Assembly: GCF_007990755.1 (NCBI RefSeq) | Contig: NZ_BJXA01000003.1 | Location: 124,001-188,000, forward strand | DNA from: Nocardia ninae NBRC 108245 | Lineage (GTDB): Bacteria > Actinomycetota > Actinomycetes > Mycobacteriales > Mycobacteriaceae | Length of the DNA: 64,000 nt | Direction: 5' to 3' | Shown: positions 57,474 through 64,000 of the stretch, piece by piece | Numbering within the stretch: the first letter of the stretch is position 1 | How the letters are laid out: the number at the start of each line of letters is the position of its first letter | Translations under genes and position numbers: made by a program | Notes under the pieces: generated by a model | Told to the model about the DNA's origin: nothing | What the model saw: only the letters and a program-made list of their open reading frames with translations | Databases searched by the model: none

Positions 57474-58277
57474 TTACCCGGTCAATGTCCGGAAGAGAAT
57501 CAGCCAGCGGTCGGGGTCGACCAGCCCGACCGGTGTGTTCTCCGGGATGTCAGCGGCGGTGCAGGCCGCCCGGACCGCTCGCGCCGGGAACTGCCTGCGC
57601 AGCGACGTCGCCAGCGAGCCGCCCACGCCCGAGAAACCGAGTTCCACCGTCCGCCGGTACTCGGCGCGCGCCGAGCTCGGCAGGAGTGGGCGAGGTCTGC
57701 GGCGCAGGTACAGGACCGCGGTATCGACGCTCGGTACCGGGTGGAAGCTGTGCCGTCCGATGCGTGCGCCCAATTCCATTGCGACGGTGGGCCAATGGGT
57801 GACGGTGAGCTTGGTCCACCTGCCGTAGTCGCCGGAATGCTTACGGGCGAACTCGCTTTGGGTGAGCAAGGTGGCCGAGGTGAGCCGCCGGGCCGCCAGG
57901 CACCAGCGCACCACGTCGGTGGTGACCGCGAAGGGCACATTGGCGACCACCGCGAACGGCTCGTCCGGTGCGTGCACCGCACGGAAATCGGTGTGGAACA
58001 GCCTTATTCGATCGTCGTCGGCGTAGCGCCTGCGCAGCCGCTCGGCGTAGTAGGCATCCTTCTCATAGGCGCGAATCCGGCCTGCCGCGTTGAGCAGCTG
58101 CCTGGTCAGCATGCCGTCGCCGGGGCCGATCTCGAGTACGAGATCGGTGTCGGTGACGCCGGACGAGCGCACGATCAACCGGGCGGCCCCGGCGTCGACG
58201 AGGAAGTTCTGGGACAGACGTTTACGGGTGCCGACCCGGGTATCGCGGGCGCGCGGCAGCGAACGATGACGGGACAT
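57474..58277 (-). CDS. erm: Erm-type 23S rRNA adenine N-6 methyltransferase
   Basis: A 267-residue methyltransferase. SQNFLVD at the start, SAM motif [14 protein letters not shown], and catalytic loop NVPFAVTT are the marks of the Erm/KsgA family; the length, basic N-terminus and [20 protein letters not shown] favour Erm, which methylates A2058 and blocks macrolides, lincosamides and streptogramin B. KsgA is less likely since the protein is shorter and preceded by a resistance-type leader. The ATG has GGAGG ten bases upstream, inside a hairpin. Subclass not assigned. Confidence 0.85.
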
Positions 58278-58284
58278 GGGTATC

Positions 58285-58296
58285 CTCCGAACGGAG
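58285..58296 (-). promoter_or_regulatory. Hairpin masking the erm ribosome-binding site
   Basis: On the minus strand CTCCG-TT-CGGAG folds so that most of the GGAGG site is paired. Opening it would be needed for translation of erm. Confidence 0.55.
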
Positions 58297-58300
58297 TGGT

Positions 58301-58321
58301 CGAATCAGAAAAAGTGATTCG
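58301..58321 (-). promoter_or_regulatory. Second hairpin in erm leader
   Basis: CGAATCA and TGATTCG form a 7-bp stem with a 7-base loop, between the attenuator and the masked ribosome-binding site. Confidence 0.5.
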
Positions 58322-58343
58322 CCCGGACCCATGCCAGGGCACA

Positions 58344-58370
58344 GAAAATCCGGCGGTCATCGACCGCCGG
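58344..58370 (-). terminator. Attenuator hairpin in erm leader
   Basis: On the minus strand CCGGCGGTC-GAT-GACCGCCGG, a 9-bp GC-rich stem, followed by ATTTTCT. It lies 13 bases after the leader stop and before erm, so it could end transcription unless the leader ribosome changes the fold. Confidence 0.55.
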
Positions 58371-58382
58371 CGCGCATCCCGA

Positions 58383-58499
58383 TCAGAACAGTCGGGACAA
58401 CGGAGCGCCACGGTGCACTGGCAGAGCCCAGGCCTCCGTGCGCAGCCGGATGTAGTACGCGCTGATCGCGTACCCGCCGTTCATCGCCGAACCGTTCAT
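58383..58499 (-). CDS. 38-residue erm leader peptide with RLR stalling motif
   Basis: A 38-codon frame starting at 58499 (second ATG at codon 6) and ending 105 bases before erm. Residues 15-20 are YYIRLR. RLR is the known macrolide-dependent stalling motif (+x+) of leaders such as ErmDL, in which a drug-bound ribosome halts on it. The frame stops with TGA. A GATATC at 58508-58513 could be the -10, making the transcript almost leaderless, and an AAAAA tract 30 bases further upstream recalls WhiB7-type promoters. Macrolide induction of erm is the likely outcome. Confidence 0.7.
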   Translation of the reverse strand: MNGSAMNGGYAISAYYIRLRTEAWALPVHRGAPLSRLF

Positions 58500-58553
58500 G
58501 CCCGGAAGATATCGCACCCCTGCGCCGACCCGCGACCGGTTTTTCGCCGCGGA

Positions 58554-59365: not shown

Positions 59366-59938
59366 ATGATCATGCACCTGCGTTCGGTGGGCGACCTGGT
59401 CGAGGCGACAGCTGCGGGCGAGAAGGTGGACTATCTGATGTTCTGGGGGCATCAGCCGGAGCACAGGGGCCGGATCGGGCCCAGCTGTTTGAGTCAGTGG
59501 TGGCCTGCGTCTTTCGTGCTGGACGGTGCGGAGTTCCCGTCGGCCGAGCACTACATGATGTGGGGAAAGGCGCGACTATTCGGCGACGTGGACAACGCCG
59601 AACAGGTGTTGGCGGCGCCGACGCCGAAAGCGGCGAAAGCGCTCGGGCGCGAGGTCCGCGGCTTCGACAGCCGCGTGTGGAGCGCGCGCCGGTACGAGAT
59701 CGTGGTGCGCGGGAACGTGGCGAAGTTCGGGCAGCACCCGGAATTGGCGGAGTACCTGCTCGGGACGGGGGACCGGGTGCTGGTGGAAGCCAGTCCGGTG
59801 GACCGGATCTGGGGGATCGGGCTGGCCGCCGACGATCCCCGCGCCGAGGATCCCGCGCAGTGGCCAGGGTTGAACCTGCTCGGCTTCGCGCTGATGGACG
59901 CGCGCGCGGCACTGCGGGGCGGTCAGCCGACCGACTGA
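59366..59938 (+). CDS. NADAR family protein (YbiA-like)
   Basis: A 190-residue NADAR protein. SCLSQWWPASFVLDG, FPSAEHYMMWGKARLFGD, GFDSRVWSARRYEIVVRGNVAKF and LVEASPVDRIWGIGL are the family blocks. Members cleave N-glycosidic bonds of riboflavin intermediates or ADP-ribose adducts, so this may remove damaged or toxic nucleotides. Starts at 59366 or two codons later. It is divergent from the phosphatase gene, and its end overlaps the next gene by 16 bases. Confidence 0.85.
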   Translation: MIMHLRSVGDLVEATAAGEKVDYLMFWGHQPEHRGRIGPSCLSQWWPASFVLDGAEFPSAEHYMMWGKARLFGDVDNAEQVLAAPTPKAAKALGREVRGFDSRVWSARRYEIVVRGNVAKFGQHPELAEYLLGTGDRVLVEASPVDRIWGIGLAADDPRAEDPAQWPGLNLLGFALMDARAALRGGQPTD

Positions 59939-61743
59939 TCGGCGTTGGCGACGCGCTCCTCGTCCGCGCGGGCCCGCCAGACGCGGGCCTCGGCGTAGTC
60001 GCCCTGCCGGTCCAGGAGTTCGGCGAGGCCGGCCATGGCGCGCGGCTCACGGCCTTCTGCGGCAGCGTGCCACCAGCGTTGCGCGTCGTCCAGGTCGCCG
60101 CGCCGGAAATGGACCACGCCGAGGTCGTAGGCGGCGCCCGCGTGCCCGGCGTCGGCGGCCTGCTCCCAAAGCCCGCAGGCTTGGTCTTCCTCGCCGCGGC
60201 TGTACATGGCGACGCCGAGGTCGTAGAGGGCGGTCCGGTAGCTCGCGCCTGTGTCCGGTGCTGGGGAGTCGTCGGCCGGTGGTTTGGACCGCATGGGGCG
60301 GGTGGGGGCCGATTGGACGCCGGGGCCGTACTGGGCGTCCGAGCCGAGAGGCGGAGTCGGAGTGGGCTGAGTATCGGCGTGTGGGTTCGGCGGCGGCTGT
60401 GCGACACCGGAATACGCGGGACTCGGCGCTGAGGGGTTCGCCGCGAATCCGCCACCTCGGTTGTGGGTCGCCGGGTGCGTGGTCGGCGGGTGGTTGTTGG
60501 CTGGGAATCCGCCGCTCGGGTTGTGCGTGGCCGACGGGTGGGCGTTGCCTGCGAATCCGCCGCCTGGGTTGGGCGTGCCTGGTTGGCTGGTCGGCGGGTG
60601 GTTGTTCGTTGCGAAATCACCGCCGGGGTTGTGCTGCGCCGCGGGCATGGTCGGCGGATGCGCCGTCGCTGGCTGCGTGGCCGCCGGCGCTGTGGTCGCA
60701 GGGGGCGTGGCCGCAGGCTGGATGGTCACTGGGTCCGCGTCCGCGGCGGCGAAGCTGCTGCCCGGGTTGTGTTGGGCCGATTGTGTGGCTGGTGGCTGGG
60801 TGTTGGCGGCGAAGCTGCTGCCCGGGTTGTGTTGGGCCGGCTGCGTGGCCGCCGGGTGGGTGTTCGCGGTGAAGCTGCTGCCCGGGTTGTGTGGGCCCGG
60901 TTGTGTGGTCGGTGGGTTGCTGTTTGCCGCGAAGCCGCTGTCGGGGTTGTCTGGGGCCGATTGTGTGGCTGGCAGGTGGGTGTTCGCGGCGAAGTCGCTG
61001 CTCGGGTTGTGCTTGGCAGGCGGGTGGGTGTTCGCGGCGAAGTCGCTGCTCGGGTTGTGTTGGGCCGGTTGTGTGGCTGGCGGGTGGGTGTTCGCTGCGA
61101 GATCGTCACCGGAATCGTGCTGCGTCGGTGGCATGTTCGGCTGTGCAGCTGAGGGGTGTGCGCCGATCGGATTCGGCGGTAGGTGCGGGGAGCGCATCGG
61201 ATGGGTGGGTTGGGCGTCCACCGCGGGTTCCGCGACCATCGGGGCGGTCTGCACCTCGACGACGAGGTTGGCGAAGTTGGCGGGTCCCTCGCCGATGCTG
61301 CACCACAGCACGACGCGGCCGTCCGGGGTGTTCTCCACGACGATGCCGTAATTGCCGACCCAGGACTTCTGCTCGCCGAATCCGTCCACCCAGACGGGTG
61401 TCAGCGTCACCAGGGTGCCGGGGGCGGTGCCGATGATGTCGAAGCTGATGCCGCCGACCAGGGCATCGGACCAGACATCGACCCCGTTGAGGCGGCGGCC
61501 GTTCAGGCCGACGTAGCCGTCGACGACCGACAGTCCCATGCCGAGGCCACGCAGCCCGGCCGGGGGCGCGGCGGACAGCAGCGTCACGGTGACCGCCGTC
61601 GGGTCCGGCCCGACCTGCTCGGTGTACATCGGATAGACCTTGCTGCCACGCAACACGATCGGTTCCGCGCTCTGGTATCGGGCGGCGAGCGGCCGATCAT
61701 CGGGCGAATTCCGAGCGGCCCATGACGAATACGGCTCGTTCAC
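59923..61743 (-). CDS. Large repeat protein with N-terminal beta domain and Sel1/TPR C-terminus
   Basis: A 606-residue protein. Residues 1-165 form a beta-rich domain I cannot place (LLSAAPPAGLRGLGMGLSVVDGY; GGISFDIIGTAPGTLVTLTPVWVDGF). Residues about 200-440 are roughly ten to eleven low-complexity repeats rich in P, Q, H, N and containing N-P-x-x-x-F-A-x-N. The C-terminus (from about 500) has three Sel1/TPR repeats such as ALYDLGVAMYSRGEEDQACGLWEQAADAGHAGA. GTG at 61743 follows AAGGCGG. It is downstream of the membrane kinase, 127 bases away, and could be its partner. Function unknown. Confidence 0.7.
   Translation of the reverse strand: MNEPYSSWAARNSPDDRPLAARYQSAEPIVLRGSKVYPMYTEQVGPDPTAVTVTLLSAAPPAGLRGLGMGLSVVDGYVGLNGRRLNGVDVWSDALVGGISFDIIGTAPGTLVTLTPVWVDGFGEQKSWVGNYGIVVENTPDGRVVLWCSIGEGPANFANLVVEVQTAPMVAEPAVDAQPTHPMRSPHLPPNPIGAHPSAAQPNMPPTQHDSGDDLAANTHPPATQPAQHNPSSDFAANTHPPAKHNPSSDFAANTHLPATQSAPDNPDSGFAANSNPPTTQPGPHNPGSSFTANTHPAATQPAQHNPGSSFAANTQPPATQSAQHNPGSSFAAADADPVTIQPAATPPATTAPAATQPATAHPPTMPAAQHNPGGDFATNNHPPTSQPGTPNPGGGFAGNAHPSATHNPSGGFPANNHPPTTHPATHNRGGGFAANPSAPSPAYSGVAQPPPNPHADTQPTPTPPLGSDAQYGPGVQSAPTRPMRSKPPADDSPAPDTGASYRTALYDLGVAMYSRGEEDQACGLWEQAADAGHAGAAYDLGVVHFRRGDLDDAQRWWHAAAEGREPRAMAGLAELLDRQGDYAEARVWRARADEERVANADQSVG
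60426..61130 (-). repeat. Tandem coding repeats of the large repeat protein
   Basis: About eleven imperfect units of 40-66 bases, each ending near a TTC-GC-GGC/GCC-AAC codon run, encode the P/Q/H/N-rich linker. Copies vary in length, which points to repeated slippage or recombination. Confidence 0.65.
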
Positions 61744-61870
61744 GTGATGCCCGCCTTTCCGCCGAATGCGTCGTGCCGTCCCTGCGCTGTGCGGCGGGAT
61801 ATACCGTACTCGCCGAAGCCGGGAATGGCGCAGCAATCATGCGGCCCCTTGACGCGACAGCGGGCGGTGC

Positions 61871-64000
61871 TCAGGCGGAGCGGGCGACGATGCGTTCGAG
61901 CGCGGCGAGGTCCTGCTCCAGCATGCGGAACAGCCAGTACACGCCGATGAAGGCGAGGGCGCTGCCCACGCACAGCACCCGCAGCGCCACGATGACCGCC
62001 GGGATGTCCTCGGCCGGAATGAATGTCGCGCCCGCGACGCCGAGCAGCGGAACGGCGGCGGCGATGGCGAGGAAGTAGGTGCTGCGGCGGTCGAGTCGGC
62101 GTAGCGCGCGTGCGTCCTGCGCACCGAGTCCGCCGTGACGCAGGAACATCGGGTACAGCGAGCGCACCGCGTAGAAGTTCACCATGAAGTACGGATACGC
62201 CATGGCGATGGCACCGCACACGATCTGCGTGATGAAGAAGTGCAGGTACGACTCGGGCGTGATGTGGTTGCCGGAGACCTGTACGGACACCGGCACCGCG
62301 ACGCCCGCGATGACCCAAAGCGCGAAGCAGGTCAGCACATTACGTTTGCCCAGTTGCAGGGTGTCGCCGCGTGCGCGGGCGAGGGTCTGCGCGTCGTAGG
62401 ACTTGCCCTTGCGCAGTCCGCGCGAAATCGACCACAGGTTCGCGAGCAGCACGTTGGTGACCACGAAGCCGATCAGGAAGCACAGGCCGTAGGTGGTCAC
62501 CGCGATCTGATCGAAGCGATGCTGGGCCTGCTCGTCCAGCTTGCTGATGATGAGCGTCCGGTTGTGGTTGTAGCTGTACCAGATCGCGAGCGCGTTCGGC
62601 ACCGCGATGGCGAGCGCCATGATCGGATGCATCAGCTTGCGCGCCCGCAATCGCCAACTGGCGGGCGGCGGGTCGACGAGATCGCGGGCTCGGGCGTCGA
62701 GGCAGACCTCCAGCTGCTGGGCCATGTCCGCCCCGCACGGCCACCGATTGTCCGGCTCCGGATCGAGCGCGCGTACCAACGCGCGCTCCAGCGCTGCCGG
62801 GCAGTCCGGCGGAAGGTCCTGATAGGGCAGTGCTTTCGGACTGCCGGAGCGACGCTCCAGCATGCCGTCCAGTGCCGTGCGGTCGCCGCCGGTCACCGAG
62901 TCGTCGTCGAAAGGCTTACGGCCGGTGAGTAATTCCCACAGCACCACGGCGAGCGCGTACAGATCGCTTCGAGTGTCGAGATCCTCGGCTGTGCCGGGGT
63001 GGTCCGGGTGTACAGCTGCGAGTTGTTCGGGCGACATATAGGCGAGCGAGCCACCGAAATAGGCGACCGGGCTGTCGCCCGAAACATTGCCGCTGAAGCT
63101 GATATTGAAGTCGGCGAGCTTGGGAATGCCGTCCGCGGTGAGCAGTACGTTCGCCGGCTTGATATCGCGGTGCAGCACGCCGGCATTGCCCGCGTAATCG
63201 AGCGCTTCGGCCAGCCGCCGCCCAAGCCAGGCGATGGTTTCCGGCCAGGACAGCTGGGCGAGCCGTGCCCGCAGCGGCGATTCGCTCGGCCTGATCTCGC
63301 CCTTGCCCGCCAGCACCGAGTCGATGACGTCGAGCAGCAGCCGCCCGTCCCGCTGTTCCGGCGGCGTCGCCCGAACCCGCTCCAGTACGGTGAACAGGGT
63401 CCCGCCCGGCACGTACTGCATGTACAGCAGCCGCAGCTTGCGGTGCTCCAGCACGCGCTGATCGAAGACTCGGACGATGTAGTCGTGATCCAGTTGCGCC
63501 AGCGTCTGCGGCTCGGTGCCCTTGTCGCGGGAGATCTTCACGGCGACCAGCCGCTGCATCGACCGCTGGCGCGCCAGGAACACTCGCGCGAAGGCACCGC
63601 GGCCGAGTCCGGTCATCAGGTCGAAGTCGTCGATCTGCTGACCGGCGTCGATGTCGTCGAGGTTCACCGGCTCGGCGGCCGACATCATCGTGCTGTGGTA
63701 GTCGTCGGTCGCCAGCATTTCCGAAAGTTGTTCGGCCTGTGCGGGATACGCTGCGGTGTACTCCGCGACCTGCACCGCGGTGCCTGCCCGCCGCCGGACG
63801 TGGAACTCCTCGTAGATGAGATCCGGCGGCAGCGGCCAGGTCCGCAGTTCCGGTAGATCCTCGACATAGTCGGCCAGGCGTTTCGGCGCCGTGCCGCGTC
63901 CCCACCGATGGGCCAGATCGACCTTGATCAACTCGATCAACGACACCCGCCGGATGCCGGGGGAGTCGGGGAGGTAGGCCCGCAGGTCCGGTGGCTCGTC
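61871..64000 (-). CDS. Membrane serine/threonine protein kinase (start outside window)
   Basis: The frame runs open to the window edge, so the N-terminus is missing; 709 residues are visible. About 120 residues before the kinase domain contain the helical LIELIKVDLAHRWGRG motif common before PKN-type kinases. The kinase has GLGRGAFARVFLA, lysine in VAVKIS, HRDIKPAN and ADFNIS, where DFG is replaced by DFN. The last 260 residues carry six membrane helices (such as IMALAIAVPNALAIW and YPYFMVNFYAV), an unusual C-terminal topology. It should phosphorylate partner proteins, possibly the downstream repeat protein. Confidence 0.85.
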   Translation of the reverse strand, partial: DEPPDLRAYLPDSPGIRRVSLIELIKVDLAHRWGRGTAPKRLADYVEDLPELRTWPLPPDLIYEEFHVRRRAGTAVQVAEYTAAYPAQAEQLSEMLATDDYHSTMMSAAEPVNLDDIDAGQQIDDFDLMTGLGRGAFARVFLARQRSMQRLVAVKISRDKGTEPQTLAQLDHDYIVRVFDQRVLEHRKLRLLYMQYVPGGTLFTVLERVRATPPEQRDGRLLLDVIDSVLAGKGEIRPSESPLRARLAQLSWPETIAWLGRRLAEALDYAGNAGVLHRDIKPANVLLTADGIPKLADFNISFSGNVSGDSPVAYFGGSLAYMSPEQLAAVHPDHPGTAEDLDTRSDLYALAVVLWELLTGRKPFDDDSVTGGDRTALDGMLERRSGSPKALPYQDLPPDCPAALERALVRALDPEPDNRWPCGADMAQQLEVCLDARARDLVDPPPASWRLRARKLMHPIMALAIAVPNALAIWYSYNHNRTLIISKLDEQAQHRFDQIAVTTYGLCFLIGFVVTNVLLANLWSISRGLRKGKSYDAQTLARARGDTLQLGKRNVLTCFALWVIAGVAVPVSVQVSGNHITPESYLHFFITQIVCGAIAMAYPYFMVNFYAVRSLYPMFLRHGGLGAQDARALRRLDRRSTYFLAIAAAVPLLGVAGATFIPAEDIPAVIVALRVLCVGSALAFIGVYWLFRMLEQDLAALERIVARSA

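Follow-up and report, generated by a model that had tools for sequence, protein, structure and literature searches.

Does Nocardia ninae turn on its erm gene in response to macrolides, and if so, by what means? In strain NBRC 108245, which has a genome of 9.7 Mb, this gene lies on contig NZ_BJXA01000003.1, within the 64-kb stretch that we analyzed and call the window. A sequence-only reading had proposed that erm is preceded by an attenuator with an RLR leader peptide. Comparison with other genomes strongly supports this proposal, as a leader peptide with Arg-X-Arg and an RNA with three paired elements (which we call P2, P3, and the SD hairpin) form a block before the erm genes of Nocardia. 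It also brings out features that the first reading had not described: a WhiB7-type promoter, a probably leaderless start, and the long stem of P2. We think that the block is a macrolide-responsive attenuator that uses P2 as a switch, and that would control mainly translation, in addition to the control that WhiB7 would exert on transcription. We would put the probability of this reading at about 70%. That macrolides induce erm in N. ninae is our prediction from the sequences.

The leader and its promoter

The gene downstream of the leader (positions 57474-58277 of the window, minus strand, with its ATG at 58277-58275) encodes a 23S rRNA adenine methyltransferase, which is the kind of gene that erm leader-peptide attenuators precede: the protein scores 241.7 bits against NCBIfam NF000499, for which the cut-off is 212. 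Its best solved relative is 6nvm (E = 1.4e-61), and the closest Erm in the genus, from N. suismassiliense (L002), is 95% identical. The 38-codon frame with YYIRLR that was first noticed upstream of erm is present (58383-58499, minus strand, with its ATG at 58499 and its stop codon at 58385-58383) and would encode MNGSAMNGGYAISAYYIRLRTEAWALPVHRGAPLSRLF. Its Arg-Leu-Arg codons (58440-58448, minus strand) are codons 18-20 of 38.

To see how widely the motif is conserved, we relied on a search of 150 Nocardia genomes, which gave 111 rows of Erm-like matches with E < 1e-35. We analyzed 104 of these loci and left out a row at a contig edge (G106), two pieces from G092, and second copies in G030, G031, G032, and G143. 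One of the 104 (L048) could not be tested for a leader, as there are just 70 bases upstream of the match. In all of the remaining 103 loci there is a leader with Arg-X-Arg: 77 of these leaders are like that of N. ninae, 2 are of the same type with a shifted motif (L074 and L076), and 24 are of a second type. In the 77 aligned loci, both arginines of the motif are invariant, while their codons are not (CGG 52, CGC 15, CGT 6, CGA 3, and AGG 1 for the first; CGC 61 and CGT 16 for the second). The residue between them is usually Leu (63 loci) and otherwise Pro (9), Gln (4), or Arg (1). Because the arginines are fixed while synonymous codons vary, there appears to be selection on the leader peptide. 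The comparison indicates that this is an erm leader with a known macrolide-stalling motif that is kept by selection.

The second type of leader (for example MSCCMFIRLRHARALAR) lies before all 24 of the divergent or paralogous Nocardia erm copies that we analyzed (L081-L104). These leaders also have TANNNT just 5' of their start, and their tail, RALAR, resembles the RALPAHR of the N. ninae type. Among the loci of the N. ninae type, two (L032 and L033) have a stop at codon 26, which is far earlier than in N. ninae and lies inside the 5' strand of P2. Both retain RLR, and the fold of L032 still shows P2.

Is RLR a motif at which macrolides stall ribosomes? For the ErmDL leader peptide, the accessible text of PMC8298421 reports that ribosomes stall at Arg6-Leu7-Arg8 with telithromycin as well as erythromycin, Leu being in the P site, and it also describes Arg-Leu-Arg as largely dispensable for stalling with erythromycin. 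For ErmDL, then, stalling at Arg-X-Arg is established, in line with the sequence-only reading. Like ErmDL, the N. ninae leader is a short peptide with Arg-Leu-Arg before an erm gene, and by analogy (from the same text) we predict that RLR is its macrolide stall site, with Leu in the P site and Arg in the A site. As far as we can see, the likeness is in the motif alone, which is at codons 6-8 in ErmDL and lies deeper in the N. ninae leader. Also unlike ErmDL, the Nocardia leader probably has a leaderless start and a WhiB7-like promoter.

The case for a leaderless start rests on the -10 box. In N. ninae this box (TATCTT, 58506-58511, minus strand) ends 6 nt before the ATG of the leader, which probably places the first base of the transcript at the A of this ATG or right beside it. 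TANNNT is conserved at this distance: it lies 6-8 nt before the leader start in all 77 loci (7 nt in 56, 6 nt in 12, and 8 nt in 9), as compared to just 13 of 1374 other upstream ATG or GTG codons in the same loci. We did choose the leader start by its -10 box, from a mean of 2.1 in-frame ATG or GTG codons per locus, and in each of the 77 loci exactly one in-frame start (68 ATG and 9 GTG) had such a box. Given the difference from the control codons, the leader is probably translated from a leaderless message. This spacing is similar to that at WblC promoters of Streptomyces coelicolor, where most transcripts are reported to begin 7-8 bp past the -10 box (PMC7157823). An upstream GTG, which would give a leader of 44 amino acids, is a less likely start: it is the ATG that the -10 box fits, and an in-frame stop codon lies at most 10 codons before the start in 5 of the 77 relatives.

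The rest of the promoter resembles those bound by WhiB7 or WblC. The published WblC consensus is GAAAWY, 3 bp, TKGMNN, 16-19 bp, and TANNNT (PMC7157823). N. ninae has the AT-rich box AAAAAC (58539-58544, minus strand) in place of GAAAWY, and 3 nt later a -35 element, TCGCGG (58530-58535, minus strand), which departs from TKGMNN at its second base and is 18 nt before the -10 box. This fits a relaxed form of the consensus and not the strict one. Across the 77 loci, 23 fit the strict form and 68 the relaxed form, versus 0 of 1376 control codons; for the second type of leader, the relaxed form fits 24 of 24 and the strict form 12 of 24. The N. ninae genome encodes a WhiB7 with the EPW motif, the WhiB turn, and the RGRP hook (features as given in the available text of PMC10727445). 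The leader mRNA is probably both leaderless and driven by WhiB7.

RNA structure between the leader and erm

The RNA from the leader to erm folds more stably than expected in N. ninae (z = -3.13; 1 of 200 shuffled sequences folds at least as well). For comparison across species, we used an alignment (A1) of 48 of the 77 loci, which were chosen mostly for their similar length; the other 29 were left out. The longest element is P2. Its 5' strand (58413-58433, minus strand) lies within the leader codons past RLR, and its 3' strand (58321-58342, minus strand; GTGCCCTGGCATGGGTCCGGGC) lies in the spacer. P2 begins 6 nt past the last Arg codon; if a ribosome stalls at RLR with the middle residue in the P site, this is +12 counted from the P-site base. 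In 73 of the 77 loci, P2 begins at a GCC or GCT codon. Ribosomes unwind RNA up to a helicase boundary near +11.

Directly 3' of P2 is P3 (GAATCA-N7-TGATTC, 58302-58320, minus strand), which is the second hairpin of the sequence-only reading and is conserved. Past P3 is the hairpin that had been said to pair with the ribosome-binding site of erm, and this too is borne out: the SD hairpin, CTCC-GTTC-GGAG (58285-58296, minus strand), would sequester the Shine-Dalgarno sequence (58288-58284), and it is paired in 48 of 48 sequences. As its four pairs do not vary at all, the SD hairpin offers no evidence from covariation. In the same alignment, 96.8% of the cells (a base pair in one sequence) are paired for P2 and 98.3% for P3.

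P2, P3, and the SD hairpin together have 97.6% of their cells paired, as compared to 96.6% if the columns are shuffled and 22.0-50.5% if slid. Most of the changes in P2 are one-sided and involve G-U pairs, so the covariation is modest. Two-sided changes occur at two pairs, including the closing pair of P3 (A-U in 33 sequences, G-C in 9, G-U in 1, and unpaired in 5). They amount to 10 cells, versus 3.9 in shuffled alignments, and 19 of 500 shuffles reach 10.

Part of P2, which we call segment 3 (CATGGGT, 58327-58333, minus strand), is complementary to the start of erm (ACCCATG, 58281-58275). We propose that this pairing would be the OFF state. It is paired in 96.0% of the cells; in the 48-sequence alignment it shows no covariation, as 500 of 500 shuffles do equally well.

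Codon usage in the leader is skewed at some sites. Among the 58 relatives with Gly at codon -7, 44 use GGA, which has a usage of 8% (N. ninae has GGC), and at Thr codon +10, ACT is used in 24 of 32, versus a usage of 4%. Judging from these relatives, codon choice shows a constraint on the leader at the level of nucleotides.

How a stalled ribosome could control erm

We propose that the attenuator works as follows. The WhiB7-activated promoter would start the transcript at, or close to, the leader's own ATG. With a macrolide bound, a ribosome would stall over Arg-X-Arg, its P site holding X as in ErmDL. The stalled ribosome would be positioned just before P2, which begins at +12 in the sequence, so that P2 stays formed and keeps segment 3 away from the start of erm. 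In the absence of drug, ribosomes would enter P2 and open it; segment 3 could then mask ACCCATG, with the local hairpin over the Shine-Dalgarno sequence, and expression of erm would be low. A switch of this kind would control mainly translation, on top of the control of transcription by WhiB7.

We modeled this switch by masking the bases under a ribosome and folding the rest. With a footprint of -15 to +17 around the P site (30 of the 77 loci), there was no switch: opening the Shine-Dalgarno sequence and AUG cost 9.66 kcal/mol when RLR was occupied, more than in ribosome-free RNA (8.14) or with the ribosome at the end of the leader (8.25). After seeing this result, we adopted a second footprint of -14 to +11, for 30 loci and then for all 77. 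Because the footprint was changed in this way, we view the modeling as support and not as proof.

With the second footprint and all 77 loci, P2 has a mean score of 0.70 with the ribosome at RLR versus 0.09 three codons on. Segment 3 forms 1.31 pairs with the erm start at RLR versus 4.18 at three codons on, and this number is lower at RLR in 74 of the 77 loci. The Shine-Dalgarno sequence and AUG are harder to open with the ribosome three codons on than with it at RLR in 59 of 77 loci, by a mean of 0.67 kcal/mol; relative to later positions generally, the mean gain is 0.67-0.85 kcal/mol, and 18-19 of the 77 loci do not follow. The effect is larger in N. ninae itself, with P2 at 0.94 versus 0.01 and an opening cost of 5.88 versus 9.05 kcal/mol (about 3.2 apart). 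RLR was no better than ribosome-free RNA (8.59 vs. 8.40 for the 77 loci), nor than positions 2-6 codons earlier (8.36 vs. 8.02-8.43 for 30 loci). In the model, then, RLR stands out only in that no position past it leaves P2 intact. Overall, the modeling weakly suggests that the pairings are mutually exclusive according to the ribosome's position: this appears with the +11 footprint and not with +17, and the mean effect is small.

How else might this region work? The sequence-only reading had noted a GC-rich hairpin followed by ATTTT, with the implication of a transcription terminator, and in ermK of Bacillus, transcription attenuation has been reported in the accessible literature. By this account, transcription would end at the hairpin unless a stalled ribosome prevented it. 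The hairpin does exist in N. ninae (58370-58350, with ATTTT at 58349-58345, minus strand), where it looks like a terminator, and a perfect GC-rich hairpin of at least 6 bp lies in the spacer of 61 of the 77 loci. But a T-rich tail after it (TTTT, or at least 5 T in 8) is found in just 7 of the 77, so we reject a conserved intrinsic terminator of the ermK type, and the implied terminator finds no support in conservation. Also, the hairpin is nested in the loop of P2, so the formation of P2 does not exclude it. We consider transcription attenuation to be quite unlikely. It seems more improbable still that WhiB7 alone controls erm and that the leader and the hairpins are remnants or stabilize the message. 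The promoter does have a WhiB7-type box, and the mycobacterial genes erm37 and erm41 are intrinsic erm genes that are likewise in the WhiB7 regulon (PMC4974804, PMC10727445, and PMC4128351, as far as their accessible text goes). For erm(37) of Mycobacterium tuberculosis, this is described as an exception to control by uORFs (PMC4128351, accessible text), so WhiB7 alone could suffice. Yet Arg-X-Arg is present in 103 of 103 loci and the RNA pairing is kept despite changes in sequence, which argues for selection on both the leader and the fold. The accessible text of these papers describes no stalling leader for erm37 and erm41, whereas the Nocardia erm appears to combine both layers.

A less remote alternative, which we still consider doubtful, is that induction works through another helix. 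Bases AACGG of the leader (58477-58481, minus strand) can pair with CCGTT (58294-58290), beside the Shine-Dalgarno sequence, and this helix A could be an anti-anti-SD helix: the 5' part of the leader, left free by a stalled ribosome, would pair with the strand opposite the Shine-Dalgarno sequence. It is paired in 82.8% of the cells of the 48-sequence alignment, the preference for GGA at the Gly codon fits with it, and in 30 loci it has a mean of 5.15 pairs with the ribosome at RLR versus 1.78 six codons on. But it has just 5 bp in N. ninae, and pair 29:297 is unformed in 37 of the 48 sequences. It also forms equally well in ribosome-free RNA (5.39 pairs), and with the ribosome 8 codons past RLR it is back at 4.44. 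Helix A and the P2 switch could also act together.

Leaders in other actinobacteria

The P2-P3 RNA seems to be a specialty of Nocardia. Among 84,980 species, the exact pattern GGTCCRGGCGAATC-N6..14-GATTCG matches 70 stretches, 54 of them in Nocardia and 16 elsewhere. The pattern is strict, as it fits 73 of the 77 aligned Nocardia loci. Of the 54 in Nocardia, 53 have erm directly downstream, and the last (L199) is cut by a contig end past the erm start. None of the 16 scattered matches elsewhere has erm, and we take them to be chance. The pattern was also found in 0 of 66 erm loci from other genera of the class (erm was above the family cut-off in 70 of 394 genomes, and we examined the 66 outside Nocardia).

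The leader itself is more widespread. A leaderless, short Arg-X-Arg frame precedes erm in 45 of these 66 loci (or 46 with a slightly different search range), versus 1 of 66 for the reverse strand and 0 of 60 for stretches far upstream, and it is absent from 20-21 of the 66. Of the 46 leaders, 14 fit the strict WblC consensus and 21 the relaxed one, as compared to 3 and 7 of 1005 control codons, which suggests that WhiB7 control is less widespread than the leader. Several of the frames among these loci (L213-L242 and L270-L305) end directly past the motif, for example with RIRRS, RDRRA, or RMRRF.

We also looked at eight named records from a collection of plasmids, hand-picked as one per Erm type among the matches listed (46 matched records). 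Seven have a leaderless Arg-X-Arg frame: Nonomuraea, Erm(55) of Mycobacteroides chelonae, Erm(36), Erm(X), Erm(50), Erm(51), and a Nocardioides erm. In Erm(46) of Rhodococcus (L307), no such frame was found. For erm(55) on pMchErm55 (L308), no clear WhiB7 box is visible by eye upstream, and the leaderless-looking frame, MGITSVAVIRIRRF, lies about 156 bases upstream and is missing from the record's feature table.

Given these surveys, we see about an even chance that actinobacteria commonly sense macrolides at erm by a leaderless Arg-X-Arg uORF, often behind a WhiB7/WblC-type promoter. Expression of erm would then need both a translation-stress signal and a drug-stalled ribosome, and Nocardia would have the long version, with P2 starting exactly where the stalled ribosome ends.

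Each part of the proposed system is of a known kind. A leader peptide before Erm(X) of corynebacteria has been described, and attenuation suggested, in the available text of PMC3350403; its record (L310) has MLISGTAFLRLRSNR, with TANNNT just before the ATG as in Nocardia. The Erm(X) leader differs in having 15 residues, with RLR near its end, and the P2-P3 pattern turned up with erm in Nocardia alone. The leader peptide of ilvBNC in Corynebacterium glutamicum is likewise without a ribosome-binding site (a reference in the accessible part of PMC4046766), but it serves amino-acid attenuation and not the sensing of antibiotics. A survey of 35 known erm genes and their homologues finds uORFs for many of them, with no pattern common to all (PMC11264731, main text). 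The open-licence literature, apart from supplements (including the uORF table on actinomycete erm in PMC11264731) and older subscription work such as that on ermSF/tlrA and ermE, describes neither an erm leader in Nocardia nor a leaderless erm leader in the text available. As far as our searches of that literature show, the combination of parts and the Nocardia RNA are new.

If our reading is right, then the intrinsic macrolide resistance of many Nocardia species would be inducible via a defined peptide motif, with consequences for the interpretation of susceptibility tests. Our reading would also join the WhiB7 response to erm attenuation, which are usually treated apart, and it would offer a clean system for asking how leaderless initiation and drug-bound ribosomes cooperate, a question that the class-wide survey makes testable across many species. 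Should the wider view of actinobacteria hold as well, erm genes that are thought to be controlled by WhiB7 only could have a second, drug-specific layer, for which ribosomes would load with no Shine-Dalgarno sequence.

The surroundings of erm gave us no reason to think that it came from a plasmid: the region has no near DNA match in the plasmid collection, and the matches to plasmid proteins (5 records) are all below 60% identity. Searches of the 64-kb window found no Rfam matches at the gathering score and no tRNAs. Upstream of erm, the gene at 58554-59312 matches a tyrosine phosphatase family. A NADAR-domain protein (59366-59938, plus strand) matches a family of N-glycosidases that act on riboflavin intermediates. 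An open reading frame at 59923-61836 (minus strand) has long, low-complexity repeats that are rich in Asn, Pro, and Thr, with units that by eye are like HNPGSSFAANTHPPATQ, and it adjoins a protein-kinase-like frame at 61871-63946.
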